Shown here: positions 1,321 to 44,606 of the stretch, piece after piece
Layout: each line of letters opens with the position of its first letter
Numbering within the stretch: position 1 is the stretch's first letter
Origin: an uncultured Verrucomicrobiales bacterium
GTDB taxonomy: Bacteria; Verrucomicrobiota; Verrucomicrobiia; Verrucomicrobiales; DEV007
Direction: 5' to 3'
Length of the DNA: 45,910 bases
NCBI GenBank assembly: GCA_937891465.1
Contig: CALAHF010000217.1
Location: forward strand, 1 to 45,910
Program-made: the position numbers and the translations under genes
The notes under the pieces: generated by a model
Databases searched by the model: none
What the model saw: the letters and a program-made list of their open reading frames with translations, nothing else
What the model was told of the DNA's origin: nothing

Positions 1321-1371
1321 CCACGATCCAACAGGGTCTGTTCGTTGAACCAATAGAGTTGATTCGTAAAA
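1321..1371 (+). repeat. Family A palindromic element, copy 1
   Basis: The sequence ACGATCCAACAGGGT at 1323-1337 is matched at the other end by AGAGTTGATTCGT at 1355-1367, with CTGTTCGTTGAACCAAT between. It lies between the coaC stop and the sulfatase start. The same arrangement recurs near 7986, 13378, 19372 and 30680. It could fold as a hairpin in either transcript but lacks a following T-run, so it is not a standard terminator. Confidence 0.75.
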
Positions 1372-7904: not shown

Positions 7905-8034
7905 TTTTTACGAACCAACAGAGACAAAAGCTGGCTTGTCCAGCGGTCTGGAGACGGCCGGAACGGCAATCGCAAGATGCTTCTGTTACGAACTACTAAG
8001 GTCTGTTCATCGATCCAAAAGGGTTGGATCGTGA
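7905..8034 (+). repeat. Family A elements, half copy plus full copy
   Basis: TTTTTACGAACCAACAGAG at 7905-7923 is a single arm. After 62 bp that include a small GCTGG/CCAGC hairpin comes a full copy at 7986-8034: TTACGAACTACTAAGG, CTGTTCATCGATCC, and the inverted repeat CGATCCAA/TTGGATCG around AAGGG. The full copy overlaps the 3' end of the minus-strand phosphoesterase and provides its stop codon at 8007-8009. The layout could be one element split by an insertion, or two copies. Confidence 0.7.
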
Positions 8035-11191: not shown

Positions 11192-13354
11192 GTGAGTTTT
11201 CTCTTTCCGCTTTATTTTCTTGGTGCAGCCGCCCTCGCGGTTCCAATTCTATTCCACCTGAGACGGCGGCCGCCGAAGGAACACATGGAGTTTAGCTCCC
11301 TGATGTTCTTGGAAAAGTCTCCGGAACAACTCACGCGGCGGACCAAAGTGGATCGCTGGATTTTACTGGCCCTGCGTTGTTTGGCGCTGCTGCTGTTGGC
11401 TCTGATTTTTTGCCGGCCGTATTTCAAATCGAGCACATTTCTCGGTGATGGCGGAACCGGAACTCGGACTGCAATTTTGATCGATCGCAGTGCCTCGATG
11501 CAACGGGATGGCCTTTGGGAAGAAGCCGTCGAACTTGCGAACGAAACGATTTCTAAAACGGGAGCTGACGATTCTGTTTCTGTTTCTGTTTTTGGGCAGC
11601 AATTGGAAACCGTGACGGATTCGGAAAATACAGTTGGCTGGACAGGGCCTGCGAGGAAAGCCGAACTCACCACCTTGCTTGCCGATTCCAAACCGGGCTG
11701 GAGTTCAACCGATTTGGGAACGGCTATTTCTGAACTCGCCGACGAAACCAGCAGCGAGTCGAGCGAAGGCAAAGATGCCTTTGCTAAACGTGAAGTTGTC
11801 GTGATCAGCGATTTTCAAGACGGTGCGGAGCGCGATGCGTTGGCCCAATATGCTTGGCCGGAAGATGTTTCAGTTCGCTGTCTTTCGGTTGCCCCCAAAA
11901 AACCCGGAAATATGACCGCCAATCTGGTCGCGGCTTCGATCACACAGGACAGCCAAAAAGCAGGACCCGTGACACGGCGCGTTCGATTGTCGAACTCCCC
12001 GGATTCCGAAGGCGAAAGTTATCAGCTAAAATGGGCGGGCGAAAAAGATGGAAACATTGCTGAAGGAATCCTTTCTCCCGGCGCAAGCCGAGTGGTTGCG
12101 GTGCCTCCACGTGAATCCGAATCAGAAGACGCCGTTCTCGAAATTTCGGGCGATGCGCATTCGTTCGACAACAAAGTTTACATCGCGCGGACGCAACCGC
12201 GTTTGATTCAAATTCTATTCATCGGCGAGGATCCAAAACGGAACGACGTCGGTTCTTCCTATTTCTATCTCGCCCGGGCGATGAATCGAACCAAAGCAAT
12301 CGACCCGGCGGTCGATGGTGTGAAATACGAAGACTTCAAACCAGATACCCTAAAAACCGCGAACGTGGTCGTCGTGCAGCTTTCCGAAAACACACCCGAA
12401 GCGATTACCCGCAGTGTGGGTAAATTTGTAGAAGACGGCGGCATGGCAATCGCAATCACTGGCGAAGGCGCGAAAGCGGAATCCCTTTCGGCGCTTTCCG
12501 GACGCGATGATTTGAGATTGGCAGAAGCCGACGTTTCCAACTACGCGATGCTTTCATCGCTTGATTTTGAACATCCGGTTTTAGCTCCGTTTGCAAAGGC
12601 AAAAGTTCGGGATTTCACCAAAGTCCACACGTGGAAACACCGTTCACTGACGATTCCAGAGGACAGTGAAACGGTGAAGCAGCTGGCTGATTTTGATAGT
12701 GGAGATCCGGCTTGGCTGGAGATAAATCGCGGCGAAGCAAACGGACGACTGTTCGTATTCACGTCCGGCTGGGAGCCTCAGGAAAGCCAACTCGCTCTCT
12801 CTTCGAAATTTGTCCCGCTGATTTACGCAATGTTTGCTCAGGCTGGCTATTCCGCGACAGAAGCAAGGCCACTCTATGTCGGAAATCCAATTCCGCTCGC
12901 GGGGATTCGCGATGCAAAAACGGTGAAACTTCCGACTGGCGACACGGTTTCATTGGAAAGCGGATCAACTGTTTTTGCCGACACCAACGAACCTGGCTTT
13001 TACACAGTGGCGACTTCGACGGTCGGCGAAGAGCGGATATTCGCCGTCAATTTAACACCCGCAGAAAGCCGCATCGAACCGGTTGATCCTGTTGTCGCGC
13101 TGGGAGATCTCGGTGTGAATATCGAAGCGGAAACTGCCGAAGATCCAGAAGCCGCCGCCGCACTTGCTGGCGCGACACAAGAAGAAATCAAAAAACAGAA
13201 ACAACGCCTCGAAGCCAAAGAAAAAGAGAAGCGTCAGAAAGTTTGGAAATGGATCGTCCTCGCAATTTTAATCGTCCTACTCATCGAAACCTGGTTAGCC
13301 GGACGACGCCGAACGGGTGTCGCCGAACCGGAGGGCGCCGCCTTCGCTGGATGA
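11192..13354 (+). CDS. BatA-type membrane protein with a von Willebrand factor A domain
   Basis: A 720-residue protein. The N-terminus has the double-helix BatA signature (SFLFPLYFLGAAALAVPILF, then RWILLALRCLALLLLALIFC near 50-72). A VWA domain follows, with the MIDAS motif DRSAS at residues 98-102 in AILIDRSASM, and further VWA strands (EVVVISDFQD near 203). The middle of about 350 residues is beta-rich and periplasmic. A C-terminal helix (about 683-702) ends in a short basic tail. Such proteins usually sit with MoxR ATPase and DUF58 genes; neither is in this window. The downstream giant coiled-coil protein is probably co-expressed. The start is GTG at 11192, placed by the N-terminal helix. 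Confidence 0.82.
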   Translation: MSFLFPLYFLGAAALAVPILFHLRRRPPKEHMEFSSLMFLEKSPEQLTRRTKVDRWILLALRCLALLLLALIFCRPYFKSSTFLGDGGTGTRTAILIDRSASMQRDGLWEEAVELANETISKTGADDSVSVSVFGQQLETVTDSENTVGWTGPARKAELTTLLADSKPGWSSTDLGTAISELADETSSESSEGKDAFAKREVVVISDFQDGAERDALAQYAWPEDVSVRCLSVAPKKPGNMTANLVAASITQDSQKAGPVTRRVRLSNSPDSEGESYQLKWAGEKDGNIAEGILSPGASRVVAVPPRESESEDAVLEISGDAHSFDNKVYIARTQPRLIQILFIGEDPKRNDVGSSYFYLARAMNRTKAIDPAVDGVKYEDFKPDTLKTANVVVVQLSENTPEAITRSVGKFVEDGGMAIAITGEGAKAESLSALSGRDDLRLAEADVSNYAMLSSLDFEHPVLAPFAKAKVRDFTKVHTWKHRSLTIPEDSETVKQLADFDSGDPAWLEINRGEANGRLFVFTSGWEPQESQLALSSKFVPLIYAMFAQAGYSATEARPLYVGNPIPLAGIRDAKTVKLPTGDTVSLESGSTVFADTNEPGFYTVATSTVGEERIFAVNLTPAESRIEPVDPVVALGDLGVNIEAETAEDPEAAAALAGATQEEIKKQKQRLEAKEKEKRQKVWKWIVLAILIVLLIETWLAGRRRTGVAEPEGAAFAG

Positions 13355-13376: not shown

Positions 13377-13430
13377 TTTTAACGAACCAACAGGGTTGGT
13401 TCATCAAACAGACCCTGTTGATTCGTTTAA
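13377..13430 (+). repeat. Family A palindromic element, copy between the BatA-type and DUF4175-like genes
   Basis: This is the most symmetrical copy. AACGAACCAACAGGGT at 13381-13396 pairs with ACCCTGTTGATTCGTT at 13412-13427, one mismatch in 16, with a loop of about 15 nt that contains TTGGTTCATC. Both ends are followed by A/T (TTTT and TAA). It fills most of the gap between the two genes, so a transcript crossing the pair would carry a strong hairpin there. Confidence 0.85.
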
Positions 13431-13475: not shown

Positions 13476-16400
13476 ATGATCCATAACGTCCTCGATCAAA
13501 AACTTCGCCCGCTCATTTCTGCTGAGGCAGCATTGCGGCGGCGCAAAGCACTCGCTGCCGTTTTACTGATCGGATCGGCGATTGCAGCGGTGCTTTTCGT
13601 TCTCGCGAAGCTGGAGAATTTTTGGTCGTGGCCGGCTGTCATCACCGTCGCAGTCGGCGTTATTTTTGCGGCGCTGATTGCTTTGTGGTGGGCCGATTCA
13701 AAAACGACGTCGGTCAAAAAAATTGCGGATAAAATCGAGAGCGAGAACCCGGATTTGCAGGCGGCACTTCTTACTGCGGTCGAACAGAAGCCGGGGCCGA
13801 ATGGCGAGCTTGGCTATTTGCAGGAGCAGGTTGTCTTCGATGCGGTGAATCACGCGCTGAAAAATGATTGGGTGAAACAAATTTCGCGAAGCCGTTTGGT
13901 GAAGGCTGGCGCACTTCAGCTCGTTGCGGCGATCGCTTTTTTTGCAGTGATGTTCGGATTGCTCAGTGAAAACAATCGGATCCTCCAGCTCGCAAAAAAT
14001 GTGGCGAAGCCGGAACCGAAAATCGAACAGCCCATTCCTGATCTACTGGGTGATTACGAAATCAAAGTAAATCCCGGCGACGCAGAAGTCGAACGCGGCA
14101 CAAAGTTGGTTGTTGAAGCAAAGTTCAACGGACGAATTCCGCCCAACGCAATGGTCGTGATTCGCGATCCGGGAGAGGAAGGCGCCGAGCGCGGTCGGGT
14201 GACCTTACAGCCGGGCTTGGATGAACAGGTCTTTGCCGGATTGATCACTAAAGTTGATTCGGACGCGGTTTATCGAATCGAATTTGATGGGGAGCAGTCG
14301 GACGAATTCAAGATCACCACGTATGTTCATCCCAAGCTAGGTCAGGCTGACGCGACAATCACGCCGCCAGCCTACGCTGAACAAAAAACGAAAACGATCG
14401 AGGACACCCGCAAAGTTTCACTGCTGGAAGGTTCTGATTTGGCGTGGTCCATGACGATTAATAAACCAGTCAAAGACGCTGAACTCTTCGGAATGGACGA
14501 TGGGGAAATCATCTCGCTAAAGGCAAGTTCTGAAAATCCCAGCGTATTGGTGGCATCCCATCAGCCGAAAGAGACTCAAAAATACCGGCTGCATCTGGTC
14601 GATGATCGCGAACGAGCCAATAAGCGACCGCCGATCATCACGGTGACCGTGAAGAAAAATCAGCCACCGAAATTGGAATTTGAATTTCCTAAAACCGACG
14701 TGGAAGTCTCAGCCCTTCAGGAAATGCCAGTGGAAGGCAAAGTCTGGGATGACATCGGTGTGATGAGTGTCGGCGTCACTTTTGAAGTCGGGAAAGAAGA
14801 TCGTGATGTCACGCTTGCAGATGGAAAACTAGCGGGCGGAAAAAATCATCCGCTCAGCACGCAATTCAATTTTGAAGAGATCGGAGCCAAGCCACGGGAC
14901 ATGGTTTCGTATCACCTCTGGGCAGAAGATCTCGGTCCCGATGGGAAAGTGCGCCGCACCATGAGCGACATGTTTTTCGCTGAAGTCCGGGAATTCGAAG
15001 ACATCTTTCGCGAAAAAGAATCCCAGGGAGGTGAGCCCAGCGAGGGCGAAGGCGGCGAGTCAGAGAAGTTGATGAAGATGCAAAAAGACGTCATCAACGC
15101 GGGCTGGAAATTACTTCGTCGTGAACAAATGGGACGGACGATTGAAGAACTCGCCAGCGACGTTGATGTTTTGAAACAGTCTCAGGAGATCACGATCGGT
15201 CTCCTTGATGAAGCGATGGAAAAAGTCGAAGACGCCGAGGTGAAAGCTCTGTTTACCGAAGCTCGTGGGTTCATGGAGAAAGCCGTCGGCGAATGGACGG
15301 TTGCTCTCGAAAAACCGGATGGGAAAAAATTGGAGCCGGCTTTGGATTTTGCAAAAGATGCCTACCAAACGCTGGTAAGAGCCAAAAATCGCGAGCACAA
15401 CGTGACCATGTCTCAAGACCCCAGTCAGGGAAAACCGGGCCAACCGAAAGAGCAGCAGATGATGGAGCTCGAAATGAAGCAGAAGGAGCTTCGCTACGAA
15501 GAGCAGCGAATGGCCGAAGAGGAAATGCCGACAACGCCTGAACAAAAGGCAAACCTCGAAGTTCTGACCCGCTTGAAAGAATTGGCGAAACGTCAGGAAG
15601 CCATTGCGAAGAAAATCAAAGAACTCGAGTCCGCCCTCCAGGAAGCAAAAACCGAAGAAGAGAAATCCGAATTGGAACGCCAACTGAAACGCCTTCAAGA
15701 AGAACAGGAGCAACTCCTGCGGGAACTTGATGAAGTCACCGAGAAAATGGACTCCGAAGAGAATCGCGCCAACATGGCGGAGGAGCGGGAGAAATTGGAG
15801 GAAACACGCGAGGCGGTAAAAGAAACCGCAGAGAAACTCGATGAGGGCAAGCTCGCGGACGCAGCAAACTCAGCCACACGCGCACAGCGTGAATTGGAAG
15901 AGGTGAAGGAAGATTTCCGCGAAAAGACCTCACGGCAATTCGCCGGCGAAATGCGCGAGATGCGGAACAAGGCACGGGAATTGGCCGACGCCCAGGAAGC
16001 GATTGGCAAGAAGCTGGATGAAAGTGAACAGGGCAAAGACGTTTTTGATCAGGCCAATTCACCGGCAGAAAATCTGGCTTTATCCCGGGAGATCGACGCT
16101 CAAAAGAAGAAGCTGAATGACTTGATTGATCAGATGCGCAAACTCAGCGAGCAGAGCGAAGAATCTGAGCCGTTGCTTTCAACTGCGCTTTACGAAGGCG
16201 TTCGCGAAAGCACGACGAGTGGGGTGGAGAATTCGTTGGCGGAGGCAAGTCAGCTGACCCGCTACAATCGCCGTGAAATGGCCGTCGAGCCTGAGCGTGC
16301 CGCAGCTCGGGGAATTGAAGAATTGAAAAAGGACATTGAAGCTGCCGCCGAAAAAGTGCTCGGCAACGAGGCGGATGCGCTGCGACTTGCGCGAAGTGAG

Positions 16401-17519
16401 CTGGATGACTTGATCGAAAAAACGGAAGCAGAAGCGAAGAAATTAGGAGGCAATCAACCCGGAAAAAATGGCGAGGACACGGAGGTGGCGGAAGGACAGC
16501 GGCGCGGACCAGATGGAAAACCTGGAGATGCACCCCGGTTTGAGAACTCAGAAACCGGAGAAGTTGCCACTGCAGAACAGCTTAAAAATGCGGGCTTCCC
16601 ATCCGCCTCGAACGAAGAAATTGAGGAGAAAATGAAAGAACAGGGCTTCACCCCGGCAGCAGACGGACAGGAACCCGGCGGTCAGCAAATGGCGGAAAAA
16701 GGCAAGGGCACGCCAAGCCCTGATGGCAAAGGCGACAGCTCCAAAGGTTCACCAAAAGGAGAGCAACCTGGCGCAGGTAAAGGTGAAAAATCGGACGGGC
16801 CGAAACGACCCGGCGAGGGCAAAGGCAAAGGTGAGCCGGGCCAGCTTGCTGAGAATGTAAAAGGCGAAAAAGGAAAAGGGCCTGACGGCAAGGGCAAAGG
16901 TCAAGGAGAGGGCAAGGGTGAGGGTGAGGGAAAAGGAGCTGGTGAAAAAGGTGAAGGAAAAGGCAAGGGTAAGGGAAAGGGCCAAGGCAAAGGCAAAGGC
17001 TATAGTCAGGGTTTTGCGAACAACCCTCCGCCAAGCGAATCAGCGGGCGACCAACGTGGTGGAGGCGGTGCTCTAAACAACGGCGGCGGAGATGATCGCC
17101 GAAATGGACCACCTCCCGGAGGTGCAGCGCAGCCTGGAAAACCTTTGTTTTTCAATCAGCCTGAAGAAGAAATCTCACTCGATCCGATCACGGGCGAGGG
17201 CTACGAGGAGTTCGCGAAAAAGCTTAGCAACATTGAAGAGATGGTTGAGGACGAGGATTTGAAAAACGAAATCGCGAAAGTTTCTGACAATGCCCGCGCC
17301 ATGCGGATTGATTATCGCCGCGACAACCTGCCGCCACAAGCTGATCAAATCACGACACGAATCACCAATCCGCTCGTAGAAATGCGGAATCGCTTAACCG
17401 AAGAGCTGGCGAAATTGGATAAGGAAAATCCCCTCGCCCCGATTGATCGCGATCCTGTTCCGAGTGAATTCCGAGAGTTGGTGAAAAAATACTACGAAGA
17501 ATTGGGAAGCGGTAAGTGA
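13476..17519 (+). CDS. Very large coiled-coil membrane protein, DUF4175-like
   Basis: A 1347-residue protein with three N-terminal hydrophobic helices (about residues 25-45, 48-70 and 148-165), then a beta-rich periplasmic part to about 500. A long glutamate- and lysine-rich coiled coil runs from about 520 to 1010 (repeated ELxxLxKRQExIxKKI-type heptads). Next is a low-complexity region at about 1070-1190 made of GKGKGEG, PGQ and PDGK units (nucleotides about 16690-17010), and then a conserved-looking C-terminal domain with LSNIEEMVEDEDLKNEIAKV. The order resembles the DUF4175 proteins of Bacteroidota and Planctomycetota/Verrucomicrobiota relatives, whose role is unknown. It follows the BatA/VWA gene by 121 bp, mostly family A repeat. 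The low-complexity tract is a hot spot for length variation. A structural role in the envelope is inference. Confidence 0.75.
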   Translation: MIHNVLDQKLRPLISAEAALRRRKALAAVLLIGSAIAAVLFVLAKLENFWSWPAVITVAVGVIFAALIALWWADSKTTSVKKIADKIESENPDLQAALLTAVEQKPGPNGELGYLQEQVVFDAVNHALKNDWVKQISRSRLVKAGALQLVAAIAFFAVMFGLLSENNRILQLAKNVAKPEPKIEQPIPDLLGDYEIKVNPGDAEVERGTKLVVEAKFNGRIPPNAMVVIRDPGEEGAERGRVTLQPGLDEQVFAGLITKVDSDAVYRIEFDGEQSDEFKITTYVHPKLGQADATITPPAYAEQKTKTIEDTRKVSLLEGSDLAWSMTINKPVKDAELFGMDDGEIISLKASSENPSVLVASHQPKETQKYRLHLVDDRERANKRPPIITVTVKKNQPPKLEFEFPKTDVEVSALQEMPVEGKVWDDIGVMSVGVTFEVGKEDRDVTLADGKLAGGKNHPLSTQFNFEEIGAKPRDMVSYHLWAEDLGPDGKVRRTMSDMFFAEVREFEDIFREKESQGGEPSEGEGGESEKLMKMQKDVINAGWKLLRREQMGRTIEELASDVDVLKQSQEITIGLLDEAMEKVEDAEVKALFTEARGFMEKAVGEWTVALEKPDGKKLEPALDFAKDAYQTLVRAKNREHNVTMSQDPSQGKPGQPKEQQMMELEMKQKELRYEEQRMAEEEMPTTPEQKANLEVLTRLKELAKRQEAIAKKIKELESALQEAKTEEEKSELERQLKRLQEEQEQLLRELDEVTEKMDSEENRANMAEEREKLEETREAVKETAEKLDEGKLADAANSATRAQRELEEVKEDFREKTSRQFAGEMREMRNKARELADAQEAIGKKLDESEQGKDVFDQANSPAENLALSREIDAQKKKLNDLIDQMRKLSEQSEESEPLLSTALYEGVRESTTSGVENSLAEASQLTRYNRREMAVEPERAAARGIEELKKDIEAAAEKVLGNEADALRLARSELDDLIEKTEAEAKKLGGNQPGKNGEDTEVAEGQRRGPDGKPGDAPRFENSETGEVATAEQLKNAGFPSASNEEIEEKMKEQGFTPAADGQEPGGQQMAEKGKGTPSPDGKGDSSKGSPKGEQPGAGKGEKSDGPKRPGEGKGKGEPGQLAENVKGEKGKGPDGKGKGQGEGKGEGEGKGAGEKGEGKGKGKGKGQGKGKGYSQGFANNPPPSESAGDQRGGGGALNNGGGDDRRNGPPPGGAAQPGKPLFFNQPEEEISLDPITGEGYEEFAKKLSNIEEMVEDEDLKNEIAKVSDNARAMRIDYRRDNLPPQADQITTRITNPLVEMRNRLTEELAKLDKENPLAPIDRDPVPSEFRELVKKYYEELGSGK

Positions 17520-17542: not shown

Positions 17543-18928
17543 TCACTTCCCGGGTGCATCCAACAATTTTGCGACCGCATCCATCAACACTTTTTCGACA
17601 CCGGAAGCAACGCGGGAGGCACGATCACTGGTTTCGTAACCGCCCTGACCATACGCGATTTCAGTGCCAATATAGCCAGGCGCGTAATCGCCATAGGCAG
17701 CCATTGCCACAAACAGATCGGACCGAAGCTTTTGAGCGCTGAGTTGATACTCAACAAACAATTCGCCCGGCATGTGTAAAATACGAGCATCATTGAGCGA
17801 CAGGCAGCTGATTGGAATCGTGTCGTCGTTCTCACAGCGGCGCAGCCAGACAAGTTTTTTAGCGGCCATGTAGCGATCTCCTGGAGTGGCTACTCGATTC
17901 GCAATTGTCGCCTCAAGGGCCTTGGCATCAAGGTGCTCGGCGACAGGCAACGCAACTGGTTCAACCGCCCATCCGATGCTCCCCGCAGTGACCGGAGTTT
18001 TGTTGGTAGCGTTCCAGGCACGCTCCATGCCTGCCGCGACTTTGTCCGCAAGAACCTGGCGATTTTCGACGGAACCATCATTCCATTTGCCGGCGCCGAT
18101 GTTGCCTCCCGCGCCATTAAAATGAATGTGCGGTATGCCCGTGTCCCGCTGGCGGGCGTTGCGAGCAAGGCCTGGGAAATCAGGATTTGCCATACCTGTC
18201 CGATAGTAACTCTGCGGATGAGTCGCGTAATAGCTGAGCGCGGCGATTGCTTTTTCGCCGTTCCAAAAACTGACAATTTTCAATTGGGGATCAATGGTGC
18301 CTACCGGTAAGGCGCGGATCTCTGGATTTTTGGTCGCGGTGTAACGGGTGACTTTGACCTTACCATCAGGTCCGAGAATGCGGCGATTCGAAGCCACTTT
18401 TTCGACCACTCCCTCTCCAACTCCGATATGGGTGACGGGCTGGGATTCCGAGATCGCTTTTTTCGCCGCCGCGGCTGCTTTGTCAGCGACCCCTCTGGCG
18501 AACTTTGGATCAAAGCCGCCACCGGACGCCCCTTGTTCAGCAATCAATTTTTCGGCGTCGAAATCACAGCGGGGTGCATCGTGCTGGTGCAGGGCGTGAA
18601 TGACAACTCGATCGGGAGTAGTGTTAACTGCAGTCGCAAAGGCTTCTTTAAAAACAGTTTGCCCGCCGCTGCTGATTCCAATCCAATCGACCGCACAAAG
18701 AACAATCGGTTTTTCAGAATCAACCTGAAGCACAATGCCACGGCAACTCAACGGCGTCTGAATACCTTTTGTCGGATCATACGCAAGGGGACTGCCGGTG
18801 GGAGGCGAGGCATCGACATCGAACGTTCCGAGTCGAACCTTTACTTTCGGGGTATTTTCCTGCCCGACTACAAAAGGGGGAAATACGAGCAGAATGGCGG
18901 CGCAAAATAGCGTGAGTAAGCTTCTCAT
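17543..18928 (-). CDS. Secreted neutral/alkaline ceramidase-like hydrolase
   Basis: A 461-residue protein with a signal peptide of about 22 residues. The N-terminal part matches the neutral/alkaline non-lysosomal ceramidase fold: VRLGTFDVDASPPTG at about 31-45, the strand of IVLCAVDWIGI, and the zinc-binding HALHQHDAP with His111, His114 and His116; a GAGGNIGAG block follows in mid-protein, and YATHPQSYYRTG carries another likely zinc His. Ceramidases cleave the N-acyl bond of ceramide to sphingosine and fatty acid; many bacterial members have unknown amide substrates, and this protein is shorter than the roughly 650-residue bacterial ceramidases, lacking the C-terminal immunoglobulin-like domain. 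It converges with the DUF4175-like gene and diverges from the desulfurase gene. The AGGTG before its ATG is one of the few Shine-Dalgarno-like sites here. Confidence 0.82.
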   Translation of the reverse strand: MRSLLTLFCAAILLVFPPFVVGQENTPKVKVRLGTFDVDASPPTGSPLAYDPTKGIQTPLSCRGIVLQVDSEKPIVLCAVDWIGISSGGQTVFKEAFATAVNTTPDRVVIHALHQHDAPRCDFDAEKLIAEQGASGGGFDPKFARGVADKAAAAAKKAISESQPVTHIGVGEGVVEKVASNRRILGPDGKVKVTRYTATKNPEIRALPVGTIDPQLKIVSFWNGEKAIAALSYYATHPQSYYRTGMANPDFPGLARNARQRDTGIPHIHFNGAGGNIGAGKWNDGSVENRQVLADKVAAGMERAWNATNKTPVTAGSIGWAVEPVALPVAEHLDAKALEATIANRVATPGDRYMAAKKLVWLRRCENDDTIPISCLSLNDARILHMPGELFVEYQLSAQKLRSDLFVAMAAYGDYAPGYIGTEIAYGQGGYETSDRASRVASGVEKVLMDAVAKLLDAPGK

Positions 18929-19053
18929 GACACCTAGGATGACAGGTTCGAAGCATGCGCCACAATAGCGGGGTCGCGGCGCGAGATGGAAGATTAGACG
19001 AGCAGTTGCTCAAATCGAAATTGTGTCGTTTCGTTTTTCTATCCAAAACGTTC

Positions 19054-20223
19054 ATGATCTATCTCGATAATAACGCCACAACCGCTCTCGATCCCGAAGT
19101 TCGCGAAGCAATGCTTCCGTGGCTGGGCGACGAGAATTATGGCAACCCGTCGGCGAGTTATCGATTTGGAAAAGCCGCGAAAAAAGCAATCGAGACGGCG
19201 CGTGAGCAAGTTGCCGCATTGATTTCAGCGCAGCCTGAAGAAATCATTTTCACAAGCGGCGGGACGGAGTCGAATCATTCGGCGTTGCGTTCAGCCATTG
19301 GCACGTGGCCGGATCGAAAAGAAATTCTTACAAGCACGGTTGAACACAGCGCGATTTTTGAAGCGGGTGAGTTTTACGAATCAATAGGGTACGTTCATCG
19401 AATGAACCCTGTTGATTCGTGCGGACGGCTCGACCTTGATGCGTGGGAATCAGCCCTTTCGGACAGGACGACGATTGCGAGTTTGATCTTTGCGAACAAT
19501 GAAACGGGTGTGCTTTCGCCCATCGCAGAAGCTGCCGCAGCGGCGAAAAGCCACGGTGTTTGTTTCCATACGGATGCGGTTCAAGCGGTCGGAAAAGTTC
19601 CTGTATCGGTCGCGGATTCACCGATCCAGATGCTTTCAATTTCTGCTCACAAACTTCATGGGCCTAAGGGAATCGGCGCGCTTTTTGTGAATCAGAATTC
19701 ACGATTCCAGCCGACGATTTTGGGCGGAGGTCAGGAAGGCGGGCGACGTTCTGGGACGGAAAACGTTGCGGGGATCGTCGGTTTTGGAAAAGCGGCTGAA
19801 ATTGCGCTGGCAGCGATGGATCACCACGATTCGATGCGCCAGTTGCGGGACGATTTTGAAACCGCTGTTATTGAGAAAATCGAAGGCATCGAGGTGAATG
19901 GAGACCGCGATCAGCGATTACCGAACACTTCAAACCTATCCTTTCCGGGGGTCGACGGCGAAGGCTTACTGATCCTTCTCGACGAAGCTGGAGTTTGTTG
20001 TTCGCCCGGTTCGGCGTGCAGCACGGGTTCAGTGAAGCCGAGCCGAATTATCAAAGCAATGGGTTATTCATCGGATCGAGCTCGGAGTAGCGTTCGGTTT
20101 TCGCTTTCGAAATACACAAACGCTGTGGAGATTTCGGACGTCGTTTCCAAAATTGAAAAGGCAGTCGGAAAACTCCGGATCGTGATGCCGACTTCCGGCT
20201 CACGCGTCATAATTAATTCGTAG
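19054..20223 (+). CDS. Cysteine desulfurase (NifS/IscS type), contains an in-frame family A repeat
   Basis: A PLP enzyme that takes sulfur from cysteine for Fe-S clusters and thiolated tRNA. The 389-residue protein has YLDNNATT at 3-10, GNPSASYRFGK at 30-40, the cofactor Asp174 in FHTDAVQAVGK, the Schiff-base Lys200 in SAHKLHGPKGIGALFV, and the catalytic Cys322 in CCSPGSACSTGS. The short PGSACSTG loop fits NifS/IscS-like rather than SufS-like enzymes. Residues 107-123 (nucleotides 19372-19422) are encoded by a family A element, yet comparison from memory with E. coli IscS from the conserved His of xEH to the next DxT shows no length change. No iscU, iscR or suf gene is nearby. I chose ATG 19054, directly before the conserved N-terminus; the frame is open upstream to 18955. 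Confidence 0.93.
   Translation: MIYLDNNATTALDPEVREAMLPWLGDENYGNPSASYRFGKAAKKAIETAREQVAALISAQPEEIIFTSGGTESNHSALRSAIGTWPDRKEILTSTVEHSAIFEAGEFYESIGYVHRMNPVDSCGRLDLDAWESALSDRTTIASLIFANNETGVLSPIAEAAAAAKSHGVCFHTDAVQAVGKVPVSVADSPIQMLSISAHKLHGPKGIGALFVNQNSRFQPTILGGGQEGGRRSGTENVAGIVGFGKAAEIALAAMDHHDSMRQLRDDFETAVIEKIEGIEVNGDRDQRLPNTSNLSFPGVDGEGLLILLDEAGVCCSPGSACSTGSVKPSRIIKAMGYSSDRARSSVRFSLSKYTNAVEISDVVSKIEKAVGKLRIVMPTSGSRVIINS
19372..19422 (+). repeat. Family A element inside the cysteine desulfurase gene
   Basis: The 31 bases starting TTTTACGAATCAATAGGG at 19372 match the copy in waaA at 30 of 31 positions. The second arm, ACCCTGTTGATTCGT at 19406-19420, matches the copy at 13412. It is translated as FYESIGYVHRMNPVDSC. 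Confidence 0.88.
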
Positions 20224-20228
20224 TCGCC

Positions 20229-22613
20229 TCACACTTCGCCGGGCAATGGAGGGATATCGCCACCCACCTCATTATCTCTCCGCTTTCGTTCACGCTTTTC
20301 CTTCTTGAGCTTGTCTTTCGACCTGCCGTGAAGCCAAAGCGGAAATCCACAGGCCATAATGAGAATGGATTCAGCCCACGTGATAAAGAGCGCCTTCATC
20401 ACTCCATCGGTGAATCCATAACTGTGTAGCCCAACACCGAGGTTGTTCACGCCCCACCATGAAAACGTAACAATCATTCCCAAAATGATCGAAAATACCG
20501 CCATCCCGATGTCTTTAATGTAGCCACCCATCCGCATGTGAAGGATCACCAACGTCCACAAACAAATCATGAGCGCTCCATTTTCTTTAGGGTCCCAGCC
20601 CCAGAAACGCCCCCAACTGTAGTTTGCCCAAATGCCACCAAGGACCGTTCCGATGATCGAGAAAATGAGACAGAAGCAAACGATTCCGTAGGTCATTTTT
20701 CCGATCAACTTGTGATTGTCGCGAACGTTTTTAGGTTCATCAAAAATCCGCGTATTCGCGCTCGCGCCATTCCCTGTGAGTCCTTTGAGCACCACTGGAA
20801 GCGGGCGCAAAAATCGATAGAGCAAATAAGCAATCCCCAAAAACGACGCCAACATTCCCGCCGCGTAACCGATGTTGATGGTTGTCACGTGAGTTGCCAG
20901 CCACAAGTTTGTGTCCAGCACCGCCTGCAATGGATCCATGGTATCAACCGCTTCTTTGACCTCGTAGCGTAGCGAAAGAAACATTCCCAAGACACCGCTG
21001 AGCGACGCGATGATGGTTCCGATTCCGCGTCGAGTGAAGTATTCCAACATCAATGCCAGCAAAACGACCACGCCTGTAATGAAGATGATCGTGTCGTAGA
21101 GATTCGTGATCGGCGGCCGACTTCGAATGATGCTTCGCATGGTGATTCCAAGAAGATTGTATCCAAGCGCCAAGACGATAACTCCAATCGCCAACCATCC
21201 GAAAATCTTAGCGAACTTTGATCCCGGCACCAACCAACTCACCGCCAGAAGGATAAATCCTAGAATGAAGTAACTCAGGCTGTTCATGAAGTAGCTCGAT
21301 GTATAAAGCCCAACTTCTTGCTCAACCTTTGCACCTTCCATTTTCAATTCAGCACGACTTTCCTGAAGGCGCTGTTTTTCGAGTGAGTCATCCGCTGCTG
21401 CAATTTCCACATCGATTGCATCGCGCTTTGCCAAGAGCCGCTCTTCCGCTTCTTTCTTCTGCGTATCGACTAACGTCTCAAATTTTGCTGCAACCGGTTT
21501 CACAATCGCTTCGCGATCATCATTGCTCGCGTCTTCTGGCAGTTCCGCCAATGCTGTCCACATGGCTTTTTGAGAATCTACAATGTCAGTCACGACTTTA
21601 AGTTCCTCCTTCACCCAAGCTCGTTTCGACTTGTCTTCGAGACCTTCCATTAACAAATCTCCTACTCCGTACCACTGATCTTCGGCCGCATCAGGTGGGG
21701 GAATCAGAGTGAGATTCTGCCCCGATCTCGCAAAAAAGAAAAACAGCTGAAACGCTTTCTGAATCGCTTTTTCATTTTCGGTTGCCGCCTCACGACCCAT
21801 TTCCTGCATCAATTGCTGAACGGTCATTTCTGGCATCACATCGAGCAGACCCACGATATCCATTCCCTGTGCAGCAAGTTTCAAATCCTGAGGCAATACT
21901 TGATCACTTGCCAGCCCCTCGCCTTTTCGCGCAAAGCCAAATTGCCCGTTCATGTATTCAAAAAAGCTAACATTGGTGGCAAGCCGGTCGGTAATCCCTT
22001 CCAGACGGCTCATCTGGTAATCGGGGTCTTCCCGCCGCTTTTGAGTAATCCGCCCACTTTCACCCGCCAATTCAGCGCGCTTCGCCGCGATTTGATTGTA
22101 AGAATAACGATCTCGTTTCCGGTGGGAATCGCCATATTTTGGTGGGACTCCAATTGCCACAATTGCTTCGGTGTCATCCACATTAAAAAATGGAAGGTCC
22201 TTCGCGAGGTCGGGACGGAACAACACATCCAGCATCCATTCCTCCGCACTGATTTTGTGCTTCTCGCCGTCTTGAGTTTCGAAACGAGCTTTTGAGCTGT
22301 TGTTGACCTGGATCAAAGCGAATCTCGCAAAGGTATGCGCCGGCTTAATTCGTCCCCCATTTTGCACCCGAATGTTGCTGAAATTTTCAACAATCGATTC
22401 TGGCCATGGCTCGTAACTTTCGAGCGGAGTCGAAATGTCTTTTGCATTACTGGCATGAGTCGCTAGAAACCAGGCGGATCGCGATGCGATGATGAGGCAT
22501 GCGAATAACAGGAGACAGACGAGCAGGTAGAAAATTCGAACCCCCTGTTCCCCCTTCGCTTCTTCAGCTTCGATTTGTGAAGCCTCTTCTCGGATTTGTT
22601 TTTTTGTACTCAT
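20229..22613 (-). CDS. ccsA: Cytochrome c biogenesis protein CcsA/ResC with a large N-terminal extension
   Basis: A component of System II cytochrome c maturation that, with CcsB/ResB, moves haem across the membrane and attaches it to apocytochromes. The 794-residue protein has one N-terminal helix (about 25-47), then about 350 extra residues with a helical, coiled-coil tail (about 330-410), and a C-terminal polytopic domain from about 415. Signatures in that domain are RPPITNLYDT, LWLATHVTTINIGYA and the haem-handling tryptophan motif WGRFWGWDPKENGALM at about 665-680. Classic CcsA proteins are about 320 residues, so the N-terminal half is an addition. It is the last gene of the lipoprotein-resB-ccsA set. 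It converges with the desulfurase gene, with 5 bp between. Confidence 0.9.
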   Translation of the reverse strand: MSTKKQIREEASQIEAEEAKGEQGVRIFYLLVCLLLFACLIIASRSAWFLATHASNAKDISTPLESYEPWPESIVENFSNIRVQNGGRIKPAHTFARFALIQVNNSSKARFETQDGEKHKISAEEWMLDVLFRPDLAKDLPFFNVDDTEAIVAIGVPPKYGDSHRKRDRYSYNQIAAKRAELAGESGRITQKRREDPDYQMSRLEGITDRLATNVSFFEYMNGQFGFARKGEGLASDQVLPQDLKLAAQGMDIVGLLDVMPEMTVQQLMQEMGREAATENEKAIQKAFQLFFFFARSGQNLTLIPPPDAAEDQWYGVGDLLMEGLEDKSKRAWVKEELKVVTDIVDSQKAMWTALAELPEDASNDDREAIVKPVAAKFETLVDTQKKEAEERLLAKRDAIDVEIAAADDSLEKQRLQESRAELKMEGAKVEQEVGLYTSSYFMNSLSYFILGFILLAVSWLVPGSKFAKIFGWLAIGVIVLALGYNLLGITMRSIIRSRPPITNLYDTIIFITGVVVLLALMLEYFTRRGIGTIIASLSGVLGMFLSLRYEVKEAVDTMDPLQAVLDTNLWLATHVTTINIGYAAGMLASFLGIAYLLYRFLRPLPVVLKGLTGNGASANTRIFDEPKNVRDNHKLIGKMTYGIVCFCLIFSIIGTVLGGIWANYSWGRFWGWDPKENGALMICLWTLVILHMRMGGYIKDIGMAVFSIILGMIVTFSWWGVNNLGVGLHSYGFTDGVMKALFITWAESILIMACGFPLWLHGRSKDKLKKEKRERKRRDNEVGGDIPPLPGEV

Positions 22614-29763: not shown

Positions 29764-31092
29764 ATGCCTCTCTGCATCGTTCTATTTATCTACAATTTGC
29801 TGCTGCCGATTTTTCTGATCGTCAGTTTTCCTTCCTTTATTATCAAAGGAATCCGTCGCGGTGGGCTCGCACGGAATTTTCGCCAGCGTTTTGGATTTTA
29901 TAAACCCGAAGTCATCGAAAAACTGAGCCGCGAGGGAAATTTCTGGATTCACGCCGTCAGCGTTGGCGAAATTCTCGTCGCCGAAAAAATAATCGCCGCC
30001 CTGCTCGACCGCGAACCGGATCGCAACATCGTTCTCACGACTACGACGACGACCGGATTGAAACTCGCCGACGACAAATACATCGATTCCAAAAACGTCA
30101 CCGTGTTGCACAATCCCGTCGACGTCCCGCTCGTGACGTGGCGGGCTATCAAGCTAATCCGGCCCGAAAAACTGATCCTCGTCGAAGCCGAAGTGTGGCC
30201 CAATTTGTGTCGCCAGATTCAAAAACGCGACATCCCGATTCATCTCGTGAACGCGCGGTTATCGCCTCGATCCGAAAAACGCTATTTGCAATTCGGCGCT
30301 ATGATTCGTCCCATTTTCGGCATGGTGAATCACGTCTGCGTTCCGTTTGAAGGTGATTTTAATCGCTGGAGCAGTCTCGGAATTGATCGCAACAACATCA
30401 CCCTGACCCGCAGCGTAAAATTCGACGAAGATCAAGCCACCGATCGCCCCGACGCAAAAATCGAAGAGCTGCGAACCTGGCTTCGCGAAAACGGCGTGAC
30501 CGATGATCAGCCCATTTTACTTGGCGGCAGCACCCACGCCGGCGAGGAAGCCTTGCTCGGAAAAATTTGGCGGAACCTTCAAAAAACCACGCCCGATCTC
30601 GCGCTCGTGATCGTTCCCCGTCACGCCGAACGCGCGGGAGAAATACAGGCTGAACTCGTGGCCGAGGACATTTCCTCCGTTTTACGAACCAATAGGGTAC
30701 GTTCATCGAACCAACAGGGTGCGTTCGAAAATCCGGCATTAATCGCCAACACCACCGGAGAGCTCCGCGCCTGGTTTTTCCTTGCTGACGCCGTCGTCAT
30801 CGGAAAAAGCATCACCGGAAAAGGCGGCCAGAACCCCGTCGAACCCGTCATGGCAGGACGGCCCACGATCGTCGGCCCGAACATGCAAAATTTCTCCGGC
30901 GTGATGGCTGATCTCGTTGCGGCAGAGGGAATTATCCAATTACCGGCAAGTGACGCGGATTTGTTGGAAAAAGCGATTGCTGATGTTCTGGCAGATTCAG
31001 AGAAAGCCGCTGACATGGCAAAACGCGGTCAGGCAGAGATGGAAATGCATCGTGGAGCGGCGGCGCGGACGGTGGATGTGATTTTGGCGTAA
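29764..31092 (+). CDS. waaA: 3-deoxy-D-manno-octulosonic-acid (Kdo) transferase, contains an in-frame family A repeat
   Basis: It transfers Kdo from CMP-Kdo to lipid A precursor at the inner membrane, so the cell makes LPS. The 442-residue protein has an N-terminal membrane anchor (about 5-28), the catalytic Glu69 in WIHAVSVGE, and C-terminal GT-B blocks including LGGSTHAGEE near 256, VPRHAERAG near 287, and GKGGQNPVEPVMAGRP near 350. Residues about 306-323 (LRTNRVRSSNQQGAFEN) are encoded by a family A element and fall in the loop between VPRHAER and TTGEL, which is variable in the family; against E. coli WaaA, from memory, this loop is about five residues longer. The element does not disturb any known active-site motif. 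Confidence 0.93.
   Translation: MPLCIVLFIYNLLLPIFLIVSFPSFIIKGIRRGGLARNFRQRFGFYKPEVIEKLSREGNFWIHAVSVGEILVAEKIIAALLDREPDRNIVLTTTTTTGLKLADDKYIDSKNVTVLHNPVDVPLVTWRAIKLIRPEKLILVEAEVWPNLCRQIQKRDIPIHLVNARLSPRSEKRYLQFGAMIRPIFGMVNHVCVPFEGDFNRWSSLGIDRNNITLTRSVKFDEDQATDRPDAKIEELRTWLRENGVTDDQPILLGGSTHAGEEALLGKIWRNLQKTTPDLALVIVPRHAERAGEIQAELVAEDISSVLRTNRVRSSNQQGAFENPALIANTTGELRAWFFLADAVVIGKSITGKGGQNPVEPVMAGRPTIVGPNMQNFSGVMADLVAAEGIIQLPASDADLLEKAIADVLADSEKAADMAKRGQAEMEMHRGAAARTVDVILA
30680..30732 (+). repeat. Family A element inside waaA
   Basis: It begins TTTTACGAACCAATAGGG at 30680 and continues GTACGTTCATCGAA, 30 of 31 bases identical to the copy in the desulfurase gene. The second half, CCAACAGGGTGCGTTCGAAA, keeps the arm less well. 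The reading frame differs from that used in the desulfurase copy. Confidence 0.88.
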
Positions 31093-36089: not shown

Positions 36090-36100
36090 CCGGTTGCGGA

Positions 36101-36216
36101 ACTGAATAGGAATCTACTTTTTAAGAAATACTTATTGGGGCGCTGGTCCATCCGGGATCAAAGAGGTGCAATTGCACTTGCCGGAATTTTGCATTCATCG
36201 GACGGAAAATTCCGGC
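36101..36216 (-). repeat. Family B leader element with hairpin, copy B4
   Basis: On the plus strand it reads ACTGAATAGGAATCTAC, then CTTATTGGGGCGCTGGTCC, then CCGGGAT and GAGGTGCAATT. It contains the perfect palindrome GTGCAATTGCAC at 36166-36177. Directly after comes a perfect 11-bp inverted repeat GCCGGAATTTT/AAAATTCCGGC (36180-36190, 36206-36216). It lies upstream (minus strand) of the ORF at 36089. Confidence 0.75.
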
Positions 36217-36523
36217 GAATATCGTTGATCTAAAAAGCTCTGTAGTCAGAAAAGCCGACAAAGTTTACTCACATTGGAGCCATCCAAGAGAGCGAGTTGT
36301 ACAAATTCATTTCGTAGAGTCATAAAATCAGGTGTTTTCCAGGGCACACCGACAGTTTAATAAAACTGTCATGCATGCCCCCGAACACCTGTCATGGATG
36401 TCCCAAGTCCGTACACATCGAACCAAACCTGTTGCTTCGTGCCGACCGGTTCTTCCGCAAAACCGTATTGCGCCCGGATTGAAATCCGATTTGGGATTTT
36501 CTAACATCCCAACATGAAGTCGC
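36217..36523. other. Gene-free stretch with a nested hairpin and a partial family A element
   Basis: No convincing gene. At 36330-36390 there is a three-tier inverted repeat: AGGTGTT/AACACCT outside, GGGCA/TGCCC in the middle, and GACAGTTT/AAACTGTC inside around an AATA loop. At 36411-36442 there is a partial family A copy, GTACACATCGAACC followed by AACCTGTTGCTTCGTGC, comparable with the second half of the copy in the desulfurase gene. Confidence 0.65.
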
Positions 36524-36948: not shown

Positions 36949-39405
36949 TCAATCCTGCTCTTCCTCCTTTGGCTCTGCGTCCTTCTCCTCCTCTAGCTTT
37001 GGCTCACCCACCCGCTCTTTATAGTATCCTTCAATTCGCTTCCAGTAACTTTCGATCCGACGAAAATGAGTTTTTTCCCAACGATCATATTGCTCTTTTC
37101 TCAGTATCTCCTTCAGCTGCTTTTTGGGAATACCGGCAATCAATGTGAGGCTGTAGGTAGAATTAAAGTACCATGGGGTGCTCGAAGTAAAAGCACGCGC
37201 AGTTTCGGGTTCGTATTTTTCTACGAGTTTAGAAACCATCGGCTTAAGCTTGTCGACCTGCTCAGCGGACAGATTGATGGCAAACTCAGTATGGGACAAG
37301 ATTTGCAATGTGATCACCTTTCGCTTGAATTCACTCTGTCGGGTCTGCGATTCCTCGAACAGCGTGCGCTGTTCAGCCGCTAAGACTTTATCAACTGATG
37401 CGCTCCAAATTCCATCCTGTTCAGGGTCTTCTGACCCCAACCGCGAGGCACCCAACTGCGAGAGCCGCTGATACACCTGTTCGCGGTTGACCGTCAGCAT
37501 GGAACGCTGAATGTATTCGCCGAACTCAACAACGGCCGAGTCCAAGTGCTTTTCGCAAGTGCCTTTCGCCGCAATCTTCAGATAGTCTTTCTGGTCCTGA
37601 TTGAGTTTTACCAGTCGATCAAGAGCCTCCAATTGGCCAAGCTGATAATTCAAAAAATCTTCACGTCTCTGAGCGACCGATTGATGTAGAAACGCAGCCA
37701 CTGCCTCATTCACAAACCCTTTATCACTGGTCGGCTCCGGTTTATCAGGTGACCGCTTGAATTCCTTTCTCTGGTATCGCTTGCTATAGCCATCAACCCA
37801 GCTTTTCCACCGCTTCCTCTGTTCTTCTGAAAGATATTTCTCCAGCTCTTTCTGCTCGGTGCTGGACCGAAGGATGTTATGAACCGTTAAATTACTGGTG
37901 CTGAAAGCCCGTCCCTGATAGTTCTTCAGGTATCGTTTGTGGCCGATCTCGGCAAGAGCCGGGACGAGTTCTTCACGCTGCTTTTCGTTCAATCCGATAA
38001 TCTTATCGAAATATAACAGGATCAAATTTCCGAAACTCTTTTTTCTACGATCTTCACGCTGCTTTACCGTCACTTCCAGTAGGGTCACTTCTTCTTTCGA
38101 GAGGATCACTTTGAGCCCGTCTATCCAGATTTTTTGATTTGTTGGCAGCGATTCGGTTTTCGGAGCCACATACACCTGACCTCGCTCAACATTTTGCTTT
38201 CTCTGAGTAGCTGATTGATTCGCAAGAAATTCCCGGGCCGCTTTCATCCAGTCTTTTTCAAACGCATCAAGCGCCTTTTCGTGTAGCTCATCCAACTTCT
38301 TCTTTTCAGCATCATCCAGGACAATGATATCCAAAATCGATTGAACCGTTCGCTGCGATGTATTCCGCTGCTGCATTCGGACGCTGGCCGCCCGTGCTAT
38401 TAAGACTTCCTTCGTCAGCTTTTTAATTTCGCCTTCCTCTTTTTTCTGGAAATTCGCCCACTCCTTTGCCCAGGTTTCGTTTTCGTTTCCGTTCAGAAAC
38501 TTTTCCAGACCTTCAGCCCAAGCGTCTGACTCCGCCGGGTCATCTTGCTCCACTGTAATCTTAAGCCGGTTGGCAAAAACCTGTTCTCTTCTTGAATCAG
38601 AAAGCTTTTCGACTGCCACCCGATATTTTTTACCAATCTCGTCCAAACGGTTCGCTACCGTATCCGCAACCAGCTTATCAAAGTCAGCCAGCCTTTTTTC
38701 ATCGAACTGAAAAGTCTTCTTAACCACACCAACCGGTCGTTCCAATTGGGACTTCACTCCCTTCGATTGCTGCTCTTTAAATCGATCAATCGCGTCTTCA
38801 AACTGCTTCTCCTGCTCTTTCGCCAGCAACTGCAGTTTATCATTCCATTTTTTGAGCTGCTCTTCCGAAAGGGCTTCTTTCAAAGCCGTTTTCCAGACTT
38901 CAGCATCAACCGCCCGCTTCCCGTCCGGGATTCGAACTGAAGCAGCCAGACTCGTTTTCCCAGCTTCGCTCAACCGCTCCATATAACTGCGGCGCCCCTT
39001 TAAATAATCAACCGTAACGGTACTGGTGCCCCGTTTTTTATAGGTTTCGATCATATATTCAGAAGCCGCTTCAAGCCAGGCAGGACGACTTTTCTCAATC
39101 GCATCGTCCATGGCACTCGCCAGAAGCGTTGACTTCGCCTCATCCAACTCAACCGCTTCCGCAATTTGCTTAATCCGGTTCTCAAAATTCTTTTCCTCAA
39201 ATTTCTTTCTTAACGGTGAGACGCTTTTTGCCCAAAAATCCCCGTAGGATTGCAACTCCTTCAAGACATCCTCCGGCAGACCTTTTTTTGCCGATTGCTT
39301 CTCAACCGGTTTGTCTGCTTTCTGTGACAAGACAGAATCGCATGACAGCAGAAAAAGCGCGGCTGCCGCCGATATCCGAAAAATTGGAGAATTGGCAAAA
39401 ATCAT
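36949..39405 (-). CDS. Secreted, highly charged repeat protein
   Basis: An 818-residue protein from ATG 39405; a GTG immediately upstream (39408) would add one residue. The N-terminus is a signal peptide with a possible lipobox (FLLSC). The rest is almost entirely helical and rich in Lys and Glu. A short box recurs at intervals of roughly 110-150 residues: LSEEQLKKWND, LSKEEVTLLEV, LSEEQRKRWKS, LAAEQRTLFEE and LRKEQYDRWEK, each followed by a basic helix. The boxes recall the LTxxQ motif of Spy/CpxP periplasmic chaperones, but the similarity is short and I do not claim homology. The tail (EPKLEEEKDAEPKEEEQD) is acidic. A family B leader abuts the start codon. Confidence 0.72.
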   Translation of the reverse strand: MIFANSPIFRISAAAALFLLSCDSVLSQKADKPVEKQSAKKGLPEDVLKELQSYGDFWAKSVSPLRKKFEEKNFENRIKQIAEAVELDEAKSTLLASAMDDAIEKSRPAWLEAASEYMIETYKKRGTSTVTVDYLKGRRSYMERLSEAGKTSLAASVRIPDGKRAVDAEVWKTALKEALSEEQLKKWNDKLQLLAKEQEKQFEDAIDRFKEQQSKGVKSQLERPVGVVKKTFQFDEKRLADFDKLVADTVANRLDEIGKKYRVAVEKLSDSRREQVFANRLKITVEQDDPAESDAWAEGLEKFLNGNENETWAKEWANFQKKEEGEIKKLTKEVLIARAASVRMQQRNTSQRTVQSILDIIVLDDAEKKKLDELHEKALDAFEKDWMKAAREFLANQSATQRKQNVERGQVYVAPKTESLPTNQKIWIDGLKVILSKEEVTLLEVTVKQREDRRKKSFGNLILLYFDKIIGLNEKQREELVPALAEIGHKRYLKNYQGRAFSTSNLTVHNILRSSTEQKELEKYLSEEQRKRWKSWVDGYSKRYQRKEFKRSPDKPEPTSDKGFVNEAVAAFLHQSVAQRREDFLNYQLGQLEALDRLVKLNQDQKDYLKIAAKGTCEKHLDSAVVEFGEYIQRSMLTVNREQVYQRLSQLGASRLGSEDPEQDGIWSASVDKVLAAEQRTLFEESQTRQSEFKRKVITLQILSHTEFAINLSAEQVDKLKPMVSKLVEKYEPETARAFTSSTPWYFNSTYSLTLIAGIPKKQLKEILRKEQYDRWEKTHFRRIESYWKRIEGYYKERVGEPKLEEEKDAEPKEEEQD

Positions 39406-39520
39406 CACTGATAAGAATTTACTTTTTCAAGAGGTTCTTATCGGGGCACCCGTCCAGCAGGGATTGAGGGGGTGCAGGAGGAGAAAGGCCGAAATCTTGT
39501 CTTCATGGTGAGATTTGGCC
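39406..39520 (-). repeat. Family B leader element with hairpin, copy B1
   Basis: It starts next to the ATG of the 818-residue gene. Conserved plus-strand blocks are ACTGATAAGAATTTAC, GGTTCTTATCGGGGCACC, and GGGATTGAGGGGGTGCA. A hairpin of GGCCGAAATCT (39487-39497) and AGATTTGGCC (39511-39520) follows about ten bases later. Confidence 0.85.
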
Positions 39521-39574
39521 ATGAAAACGGCCTGGAGTCAATGCTTTGAGCCGTGGATCTACGGGACAGCGATG

Positions 39575-39663
39575 ACTGAAAGGACGTTGCTTTTCCACGA
39601 AGTTCTTATCGGGGCACCATTCCAGCGCGGATTGAGTGGGTCCAATATTATTCCACACGGTGG
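39575..39663 (-). repeat. Family B leader element with hairpin, copy B2
   Basis: A second copy about 168 bp from B1 in the same orientation, reading ACTGAAAGGACGTTGC, AGTTCTTATCGGGGCACC and GCGGATTGAGTGGGT. A short hairpin CCAC-ACG-GTGG lies at 39653-39663. It stands between the end of the SGNH gene and B1, with no start codon directly beside it, so it may be a tandem duplicate. Confidence 0.8.
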
Positions 39664-44490: not shown

Positions 44491-44503
44491 TGGTAACCAA
44501 CTG

Positions 44504-44606
44504 ACTGACAGGAATTTGCTTTTTCAAGGGTTCTTATGAGTGCGTCGGTCCTCCCGGGATTGAGGGGGTGCAATTTTTCAATCGGTCGGAGCCAAGATCT
44601 TGCTCC
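44504..44606 (-). repeat. Family B leader element with hairpin, copy B3
   Basis: It reads ACTGACAGGAATTTGC, GGTTCTTATGAGTGCG, GGTCC and GGGATTGAGGGGGTGCAA on the plus strand. The near-palindrome GGAGCCAAGATCTTGCTCC at 44588-44606 follows. The element ends 13 bp before the sulfatase start and is the most divergent copy in its central part. Confidence 0.8.

Follow-up and report, generated by a model that had tools for sequence, protein, structure and literature searches.

The window, a stretch of 45,910 nucleotides, belongs to a genome (G000; 229 contigs, about 6 Mb) to which, among named relatives, MAGs of Verrucomicrobiales and Akkermansiaceae come closest. On its forward strand, at 19054..20223, lies a gene for a NifS/IscS-type cysteine desulfurase of 389 amino acids, referred to here as nifS, which was recognized from the list of open reading frames, a profile match and the alignment of relatives. 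The ATG at 19054 is its likely start, since relatives align from this position, and the reading frame may open at the ATG at 18955. The protein belongs to the NifS/IscS family, with a match to TIGR03402 of E=5.8e-144, yet below the curated cut-off of this model.

Within this gene we found two 21-bp imperfect palindromes placed exactly 22 bp apart, namely, unit 1 (CGAATCAATAGGGTACGTTCA, with the core ATAGGGT) at 19377..19397 on the forward strand, and the inverted unit 2 (CGAATCAACAGGGTTCATTCG) at 19399..19419 on the reverse strand. Together with the flanking TTTTA and T, they make up an element of 49 nucleotides (19372..19420, forward strand), which in frame with the following bases is read as TTT TAC GAA TCA ATA GGG TAC GTT CAT CGA ATG AAC CCT GTT GAT TCG TGC, that is, FYESIGYVHRMNPVDSC, residues 107-123 of the frame starting at 19054. 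A first-pass annotation of this DNA had described a repeat at 19372-19422; its sequence, frame and peptide are as written there, and its limits are drawn in here to a core at 19377-19419. The predicted RNA hairpin of this copy has a minimum free energy of -28.4 kcal/mol (z -6.8), and Rfam models gave no match at E<=1 to positions 18900-20300 of the window.

A dispersed family of paired palindromic units

A 111-nt query around the nifS site returned 48 matches in the genome at E<=0.001, the best other place giving E=6e-13 over 48 nt, which upholds the first-pass view of a repeat and not a chance likeness. The two matches on which that view was founded were also recovered: the first 31 bases agree with a copy in waaA at 30 positions, and the second arm shares 15 identical nucleotides (ACCCTGTTGATTCGT) with an intergenic copy. 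The latter is an inverted pair at 13383..13425, with no strand assigned, between the open reading frames at 11192-13354 and 13476-17519. Elsewhere in the window there are a partly degenerate intergenic direct pair (1324..1366, forward), a degenerate direct pair (7989..8031, forward) whose second unit, at 8011-8031, is clear, and a single unit at 36419..36439 on the reverse strand. When the window was compared with the nifS contig of G001, only nifS and scattered copies of the repeat aligned.

So as not to favour copies similar to that in nifS, the core [AG]YAGGGT alone was scanned in G000 (446 kb) and G012 (400 kb). Core pairs at exactly 22 nt numbered 45 and 33, respectively, and other spacings gave few pairs; extrapolating from the scanned density, a 6-Mb genome would hold about 600 paired copies. 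Each unit is a 21-bp imperfect palindrome with a 9-3-9 layout, which reads CGAACCAAC-AGG-GTTGGTTCG in G000 (version g1), CGATCARAC-AGG-GTCTGATCG in G012 (version g12), and cGACTCAAC-AGG-GTTGAGTCa in eight other genomes of the clade described below. Unit orientation is set by the central AGG or CCT, and units spaced by 22 nt occur in either relative orientation. The spacing is fixed at 22 nt in three families and is 21 nt in G019, where the repeat takes the form of 21-nt units in direct tandem (GATTCAATAGGGTACAAT..., peptide SIGY; L012:1819-1863 and L119-L138).

Most copies of G000 are intergenic (35 of 45), with 9 between convergent, 22 between tandem and 4 between divergent genes, against a background of 30, 127 and 46; thus, convergent or tandem gene pairs are favoured, near stop codons. 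Y1_Tnp genes are present in the genomes examined, and of 12 Y1 transposase loci checked, one has two cores 22 nt apart nearby (L225:1335 and 1357, in G023, near a Y1-type transposase gene); this locus excepted, no element-flanked RAYT transposase was seen at these 12 loci. A separate family of 73-nt repeats, containing GGGGCACC...GGGATTGAGGGGGTGCA, has four copies in the window (36098-36170, 39404-39476, 39572-39644 and 44500-44572), the other copies being 63-79% identical to the reference copy.

Length and age of the replacement in nifS

The protein aligns without gaps with human NFS1 over the stretch that runs from the conserved EH(S/K) motif across the element to NNE, and it also aligns gap-free with outgroup proteins that lack the element, so that no residues were added, as had been proposed. 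Among 65 aligned nifS rows no element-sized stretch is added at the segment, with G019 as the one clear exception: the 8 residues that it gains consist of the 21-nt repeat unit of that genome. Differences of one or two residues occur in a few more rows.

With the columns of the element masked, the nifS tree places 22 sequences in one clade (support 94/88), which takes in G012, G023, G019, G000, G001, G002 and the species L139-L155. About 19 of these 22 Verrucomicrobiales species hold the element at the same codons, and it has visibly been lost from nifS in L142, L152 and L154, where the element has decayed and repeat matches elsewhere in the genome are kept. The replacement is therefore not an event of the present lineage alone. 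Likewise, insertion into nifS in this lineage is excluded by the orthologous sites in most clade species together with the equal length.

We then ranked the site among all positions of the gene (about 1,100) using weight matrices from dispersed copies. It came first in 10 of 12 clade nifS genes tested and between 5th and 19th in L142 and L154, and the same site ranked from 10th to 877th of about 1,100 in 14 outgroup nifS genes. These are the relatives lacking the element that the first-pass annotation had proposed to look for, with sites unlike the element and the same protein length. As outgroup sites are not element-like and most of the clade sites tested are top-ranked at equal length, the change in nifS dates to the branch leading to the 22-species clade or close by. 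There, over about 43 bp, native nifS codons were turned into the sequence of the element at unchanged length. The proposal that native sequence was replaced is in this respect borne out by the in-frame repeat and the equal length; a single overwriting event is, by contrast, something that we infer and have not observed, and the genomes compared showed neither an intermediate nor a strain-level conversion tract nor a footprint of recombination.

The segment is only in part a swapped, non-homologous one. On the one hand, most of the clade has R116, N118 and S122, residues that outgroups have seldom or not at all, with R116 and N118 standing in place of T116 and V/L/I118. On the other hand, G112, Y113, V120, D121 and mostly E109 agree with the native family pattern, as the first reading of the peptide had it, and G112, V120 and D121 are nearly unchanged between clade and outgroups.

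Constraint on the nifS site at the DNA level

Codon choice was analysed at 178 fourfold-degenerate nifS columns in 21 clade species, against the codon usage of each gene itself. The three most biased columns all fall within the element, namely, P119 (CCT in 15 of 19; background 10%), R116 (CGA in 10 of 13; background 12%) and G112 (GGG in 16 of 20; background 24%), and V120 (GTT in 12 of 21; background 13%) comes fifth. This synonymous bias was matched in 0 of 20000 permutations. The outer 14-bp hairpin of the nifS element has 84.5% of its cells paired, against 28 to 46% when slid; covariation is modest, its measures being reached by 8 to 53 of 500 shuffles.

These data dispose of chance likeness of ordinary codons to the repeat, for which it may be said that some native motif residues are common to outgroups: it is refuted by E values of about 1e-12 to other copies, the 22-nt pairing of cores, the synonymous bias and the recurrence of the element in other genes.

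Copies in other genes

The element recurs inside glpD: G000, G012 and G023 have it at the same codons, G001 has one clear unit, and the glpD genes of G013, G016, G019 and G021 have no element. Length through the element differs by at most one residue, and the element overlies a native motif, PC.T..L, that is common to outgroups and PDB 3da1. In a gene that we take to be of DUF1549 type, one and the same linker contains both units of an element in G000, G012 and G039.

In the window, the second in-gene copy is a direct pair (30685..30727, forward) in waaA, the Kdo transferase gene (29764..31092, forward), where it sits in a loop of variable length; units are found at this one site in G000, G001, G039 and G046. 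The second unit (30707-30727 in the window, compared with L271) faces the same way as the first in G000 and the opposite way in G001, as a short inversion of the spacer between the arms would give, orientation resting only on the central AGG/CCT. Among about 4,400 pairs of copies, none exceeds the identity of 30 of 31 bases between the nifS and waaA copies. Two other pairs share this value, which is thus not special, and recent copying between these two genes was discarded on this ground.

In-gene insertion by the same repeat happens too. In genomes with the g1 version, a gene that is presumably DNA-glycosylase-like contains two elements in a row (L066:2018-2130 in G000; L279 in G001), with about 29 extra residues when compared with G002 and G038. 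Hence, overwriting does not hold for every copy of the repeat, given the 8 residues gained by the G019 nifS and the roughly 29 gained by this gene.

The in-gene copies bear genus-specific versions of the repeat

We scored in-gene copies by two-unit log-odds of g1 versus g12, a comparison of two genus-specific families only. The nifS copies of G000 (+48.8) and G001 (+39.0) are g1-type, and those of G012 (-12.2) and G023 (-11.2) lean towards g12; other species scored from -21 to +13. In the protein, the g1 codons give VHRM where most of the clade has E/D-x-R-F/L. For nifS, glpD and the DUF1549-type gene, all copies of G000 fell within the range of dispersed g1 copies (3 to 49) and all those of G012 within the range of dispersed g12 copies (-30 to -12), that is, six of six inside the range of their own family. 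The matrices were built without the G012 copies in PSD, nifS and glpD and without the G000 copies in nifS and waaA; they did include the G000 copy in glpD, as one of 43 pairs. Therefore, the in-gene copy of nifS now bears the genus-specific version of the repeat, and so do the copies in glpD and the DUF1549-type gene, which lie at orthologous sites. For the remaining genomes of the clade, the nifS copy had no clear preference for copies of its own genome, so tracking is established only for lineages with distinct families.

Possible origins of the in-gene element

What lies in nifS is one copy of a REP-like element that is dispersed in genomes across the clade and consists of two 21-bp imperfect palindromes (9-3-9) with cores 22 bp apart. 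As to how it came to be there, we give about even weight to an ancient replacement by templated copying, followed by repeated re-copying, that is, concerted evolution. The native codons may have been replaced by a templated copy, through ectopic gene conversion or template switching from another copy of the repeat, with survival only of those copies whose peptide kept the family motif. Later re-copying from the repeats of each genome would then produce the tracking, and would amount to concerted evolution inside a protein-coding gene. The wider proposition, that dispersed palindromes overwrite conserved codons at constant length and thereafter follow the concerted evolution of their family across the genome, repeatedly rewriting parts of NifS and GlpD, we hold slightly more tentatively.

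The main rival reading, which is less probable, is that the element is a candidate binding site for a clade-conserved DNA-binding protein, its two dyads lying two helical turns apart. Selection on the DNA would then make or keep the in-gene sites, and drift in the specificity of the protein would account for the genus tracking; such selection could also yield the synonymous conservation. The palindromic units, the length of time for which orthologous codons have kept them, the extreme synonymous bias there, and the absence of elements near most Y1 transposase genes examined all fit. The spacing, constant at 22 nt in three families whichever way the two units face, and 21 nt in G019, is suggestive only. 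However, about 600 long two-armed copies per genome resemble dispersed repeats, a 43-bp double palindrome would be hard to reach by point mutation within a conserved gene, the cognate protein is putative, and L142 and L154 lost the nifS site while keeping related repeats.

Insertion of the element with a compensating deletion of an equal native stretch seems improbable, even though the insertions in the glycosylase-like gene and in the G019 nifS give it precedents: the deletion would have to be exactly equal in nifS, and nearly so in glpD, and the clade has no partly lengthened nifS intermediate other than G019, with its own 21-nt unit. More doubtful still is that nifS was the source, its native sequence having turned palindromic and seeded the family. 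The native E-S-x-G-Y...P-V-D does resemble the translated element, and translation in that frame gives (D/E)-S/E-x-G-Y for each of the three families, but outgroup nifS DNA is not especially element-like, the g12 consensus has a stop in this frame, and glpD and the DUF1549-type gene show the repeat pattern at unrelated native sequences.

Relation to known repeats

REPs and BIMEs are short palindromic units, often paired in opposite orientation, which number in the hundreds and lie for the most part near 3' ends, where the neighbouring genes are in tandem or convergent (PMC3733652). The present element is similar in being palindromic, numerous and mostly intergenic, between tandem or convergent gene pairs near 3' ends. 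Unlike REPs, it has no GTAG or CGTC terminal tag in the g1, g12 or other consensus obtained here, and its two units keep a fixed 22-nt spacing in either relative orientation. At the Y1 loci examined, no RAYT transposase flanked by the element was seen, save for the two cores in L225. Since the tags of the superfamily are absent, we do not file the element as a member, and call its distribution REP-like. Intragenic REPs are known, the GTAG repeats of O. terrae being the most numerous, and in recB two species of Xanthomonas have different REPs at roughly one position; both intragenic REPs and Rickettsia palindromic elements are described as insertions (PMC3733652). Here, in contrast, nifS and glpD gain no residues, or at most one, and the copy is the genus-specific version.

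A further comparison is with Rickettsia, whose palindromic elements are in-gene insertions that add residues. The likeness lies in palindromic repeats translated in frame inside conserved genes. Those elements interrupt genes and lengthen the product (PMC3733652), whereas here nifS and glpD had sequence replaced; in-frame lengthening of that type is not seen in the nifS of the window, which has the same length as outgroups and human NFS1. Enterobacterial RU-1/2/3 are MITE-like small mobile sequences that give amino acids to annotated proteins; they measure 103-168 bp and their in-gene sequences are described as fusions (PMC2759123), as opposed to the 43-45 bp of the present element, which replaces native codons. 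In the open papers searched we found no description of an in-gene copy that tracks a genus-specific repeat version, and no paper that brings together REP sequences, palindromes, concerted evolution and gene conversion; among the matches listed for the string CAACAGGGT, none looked related by title.

In-gene palindromes have so far been described as insertions that add residues, and here the same codons of conserved enzymes bear the repeat without lengthening, in its genus-specific version. What shapes the amino acids of these enzymes is then either concerted evolution or a DNA-binding site that coevolves with its protein. If concerted evolution is the true cause, lineage-specific amino-acid changes would arise from a repeat that rewrites parts of NifS and GlpD, and the 22-species clade provides natural replicates of this process.
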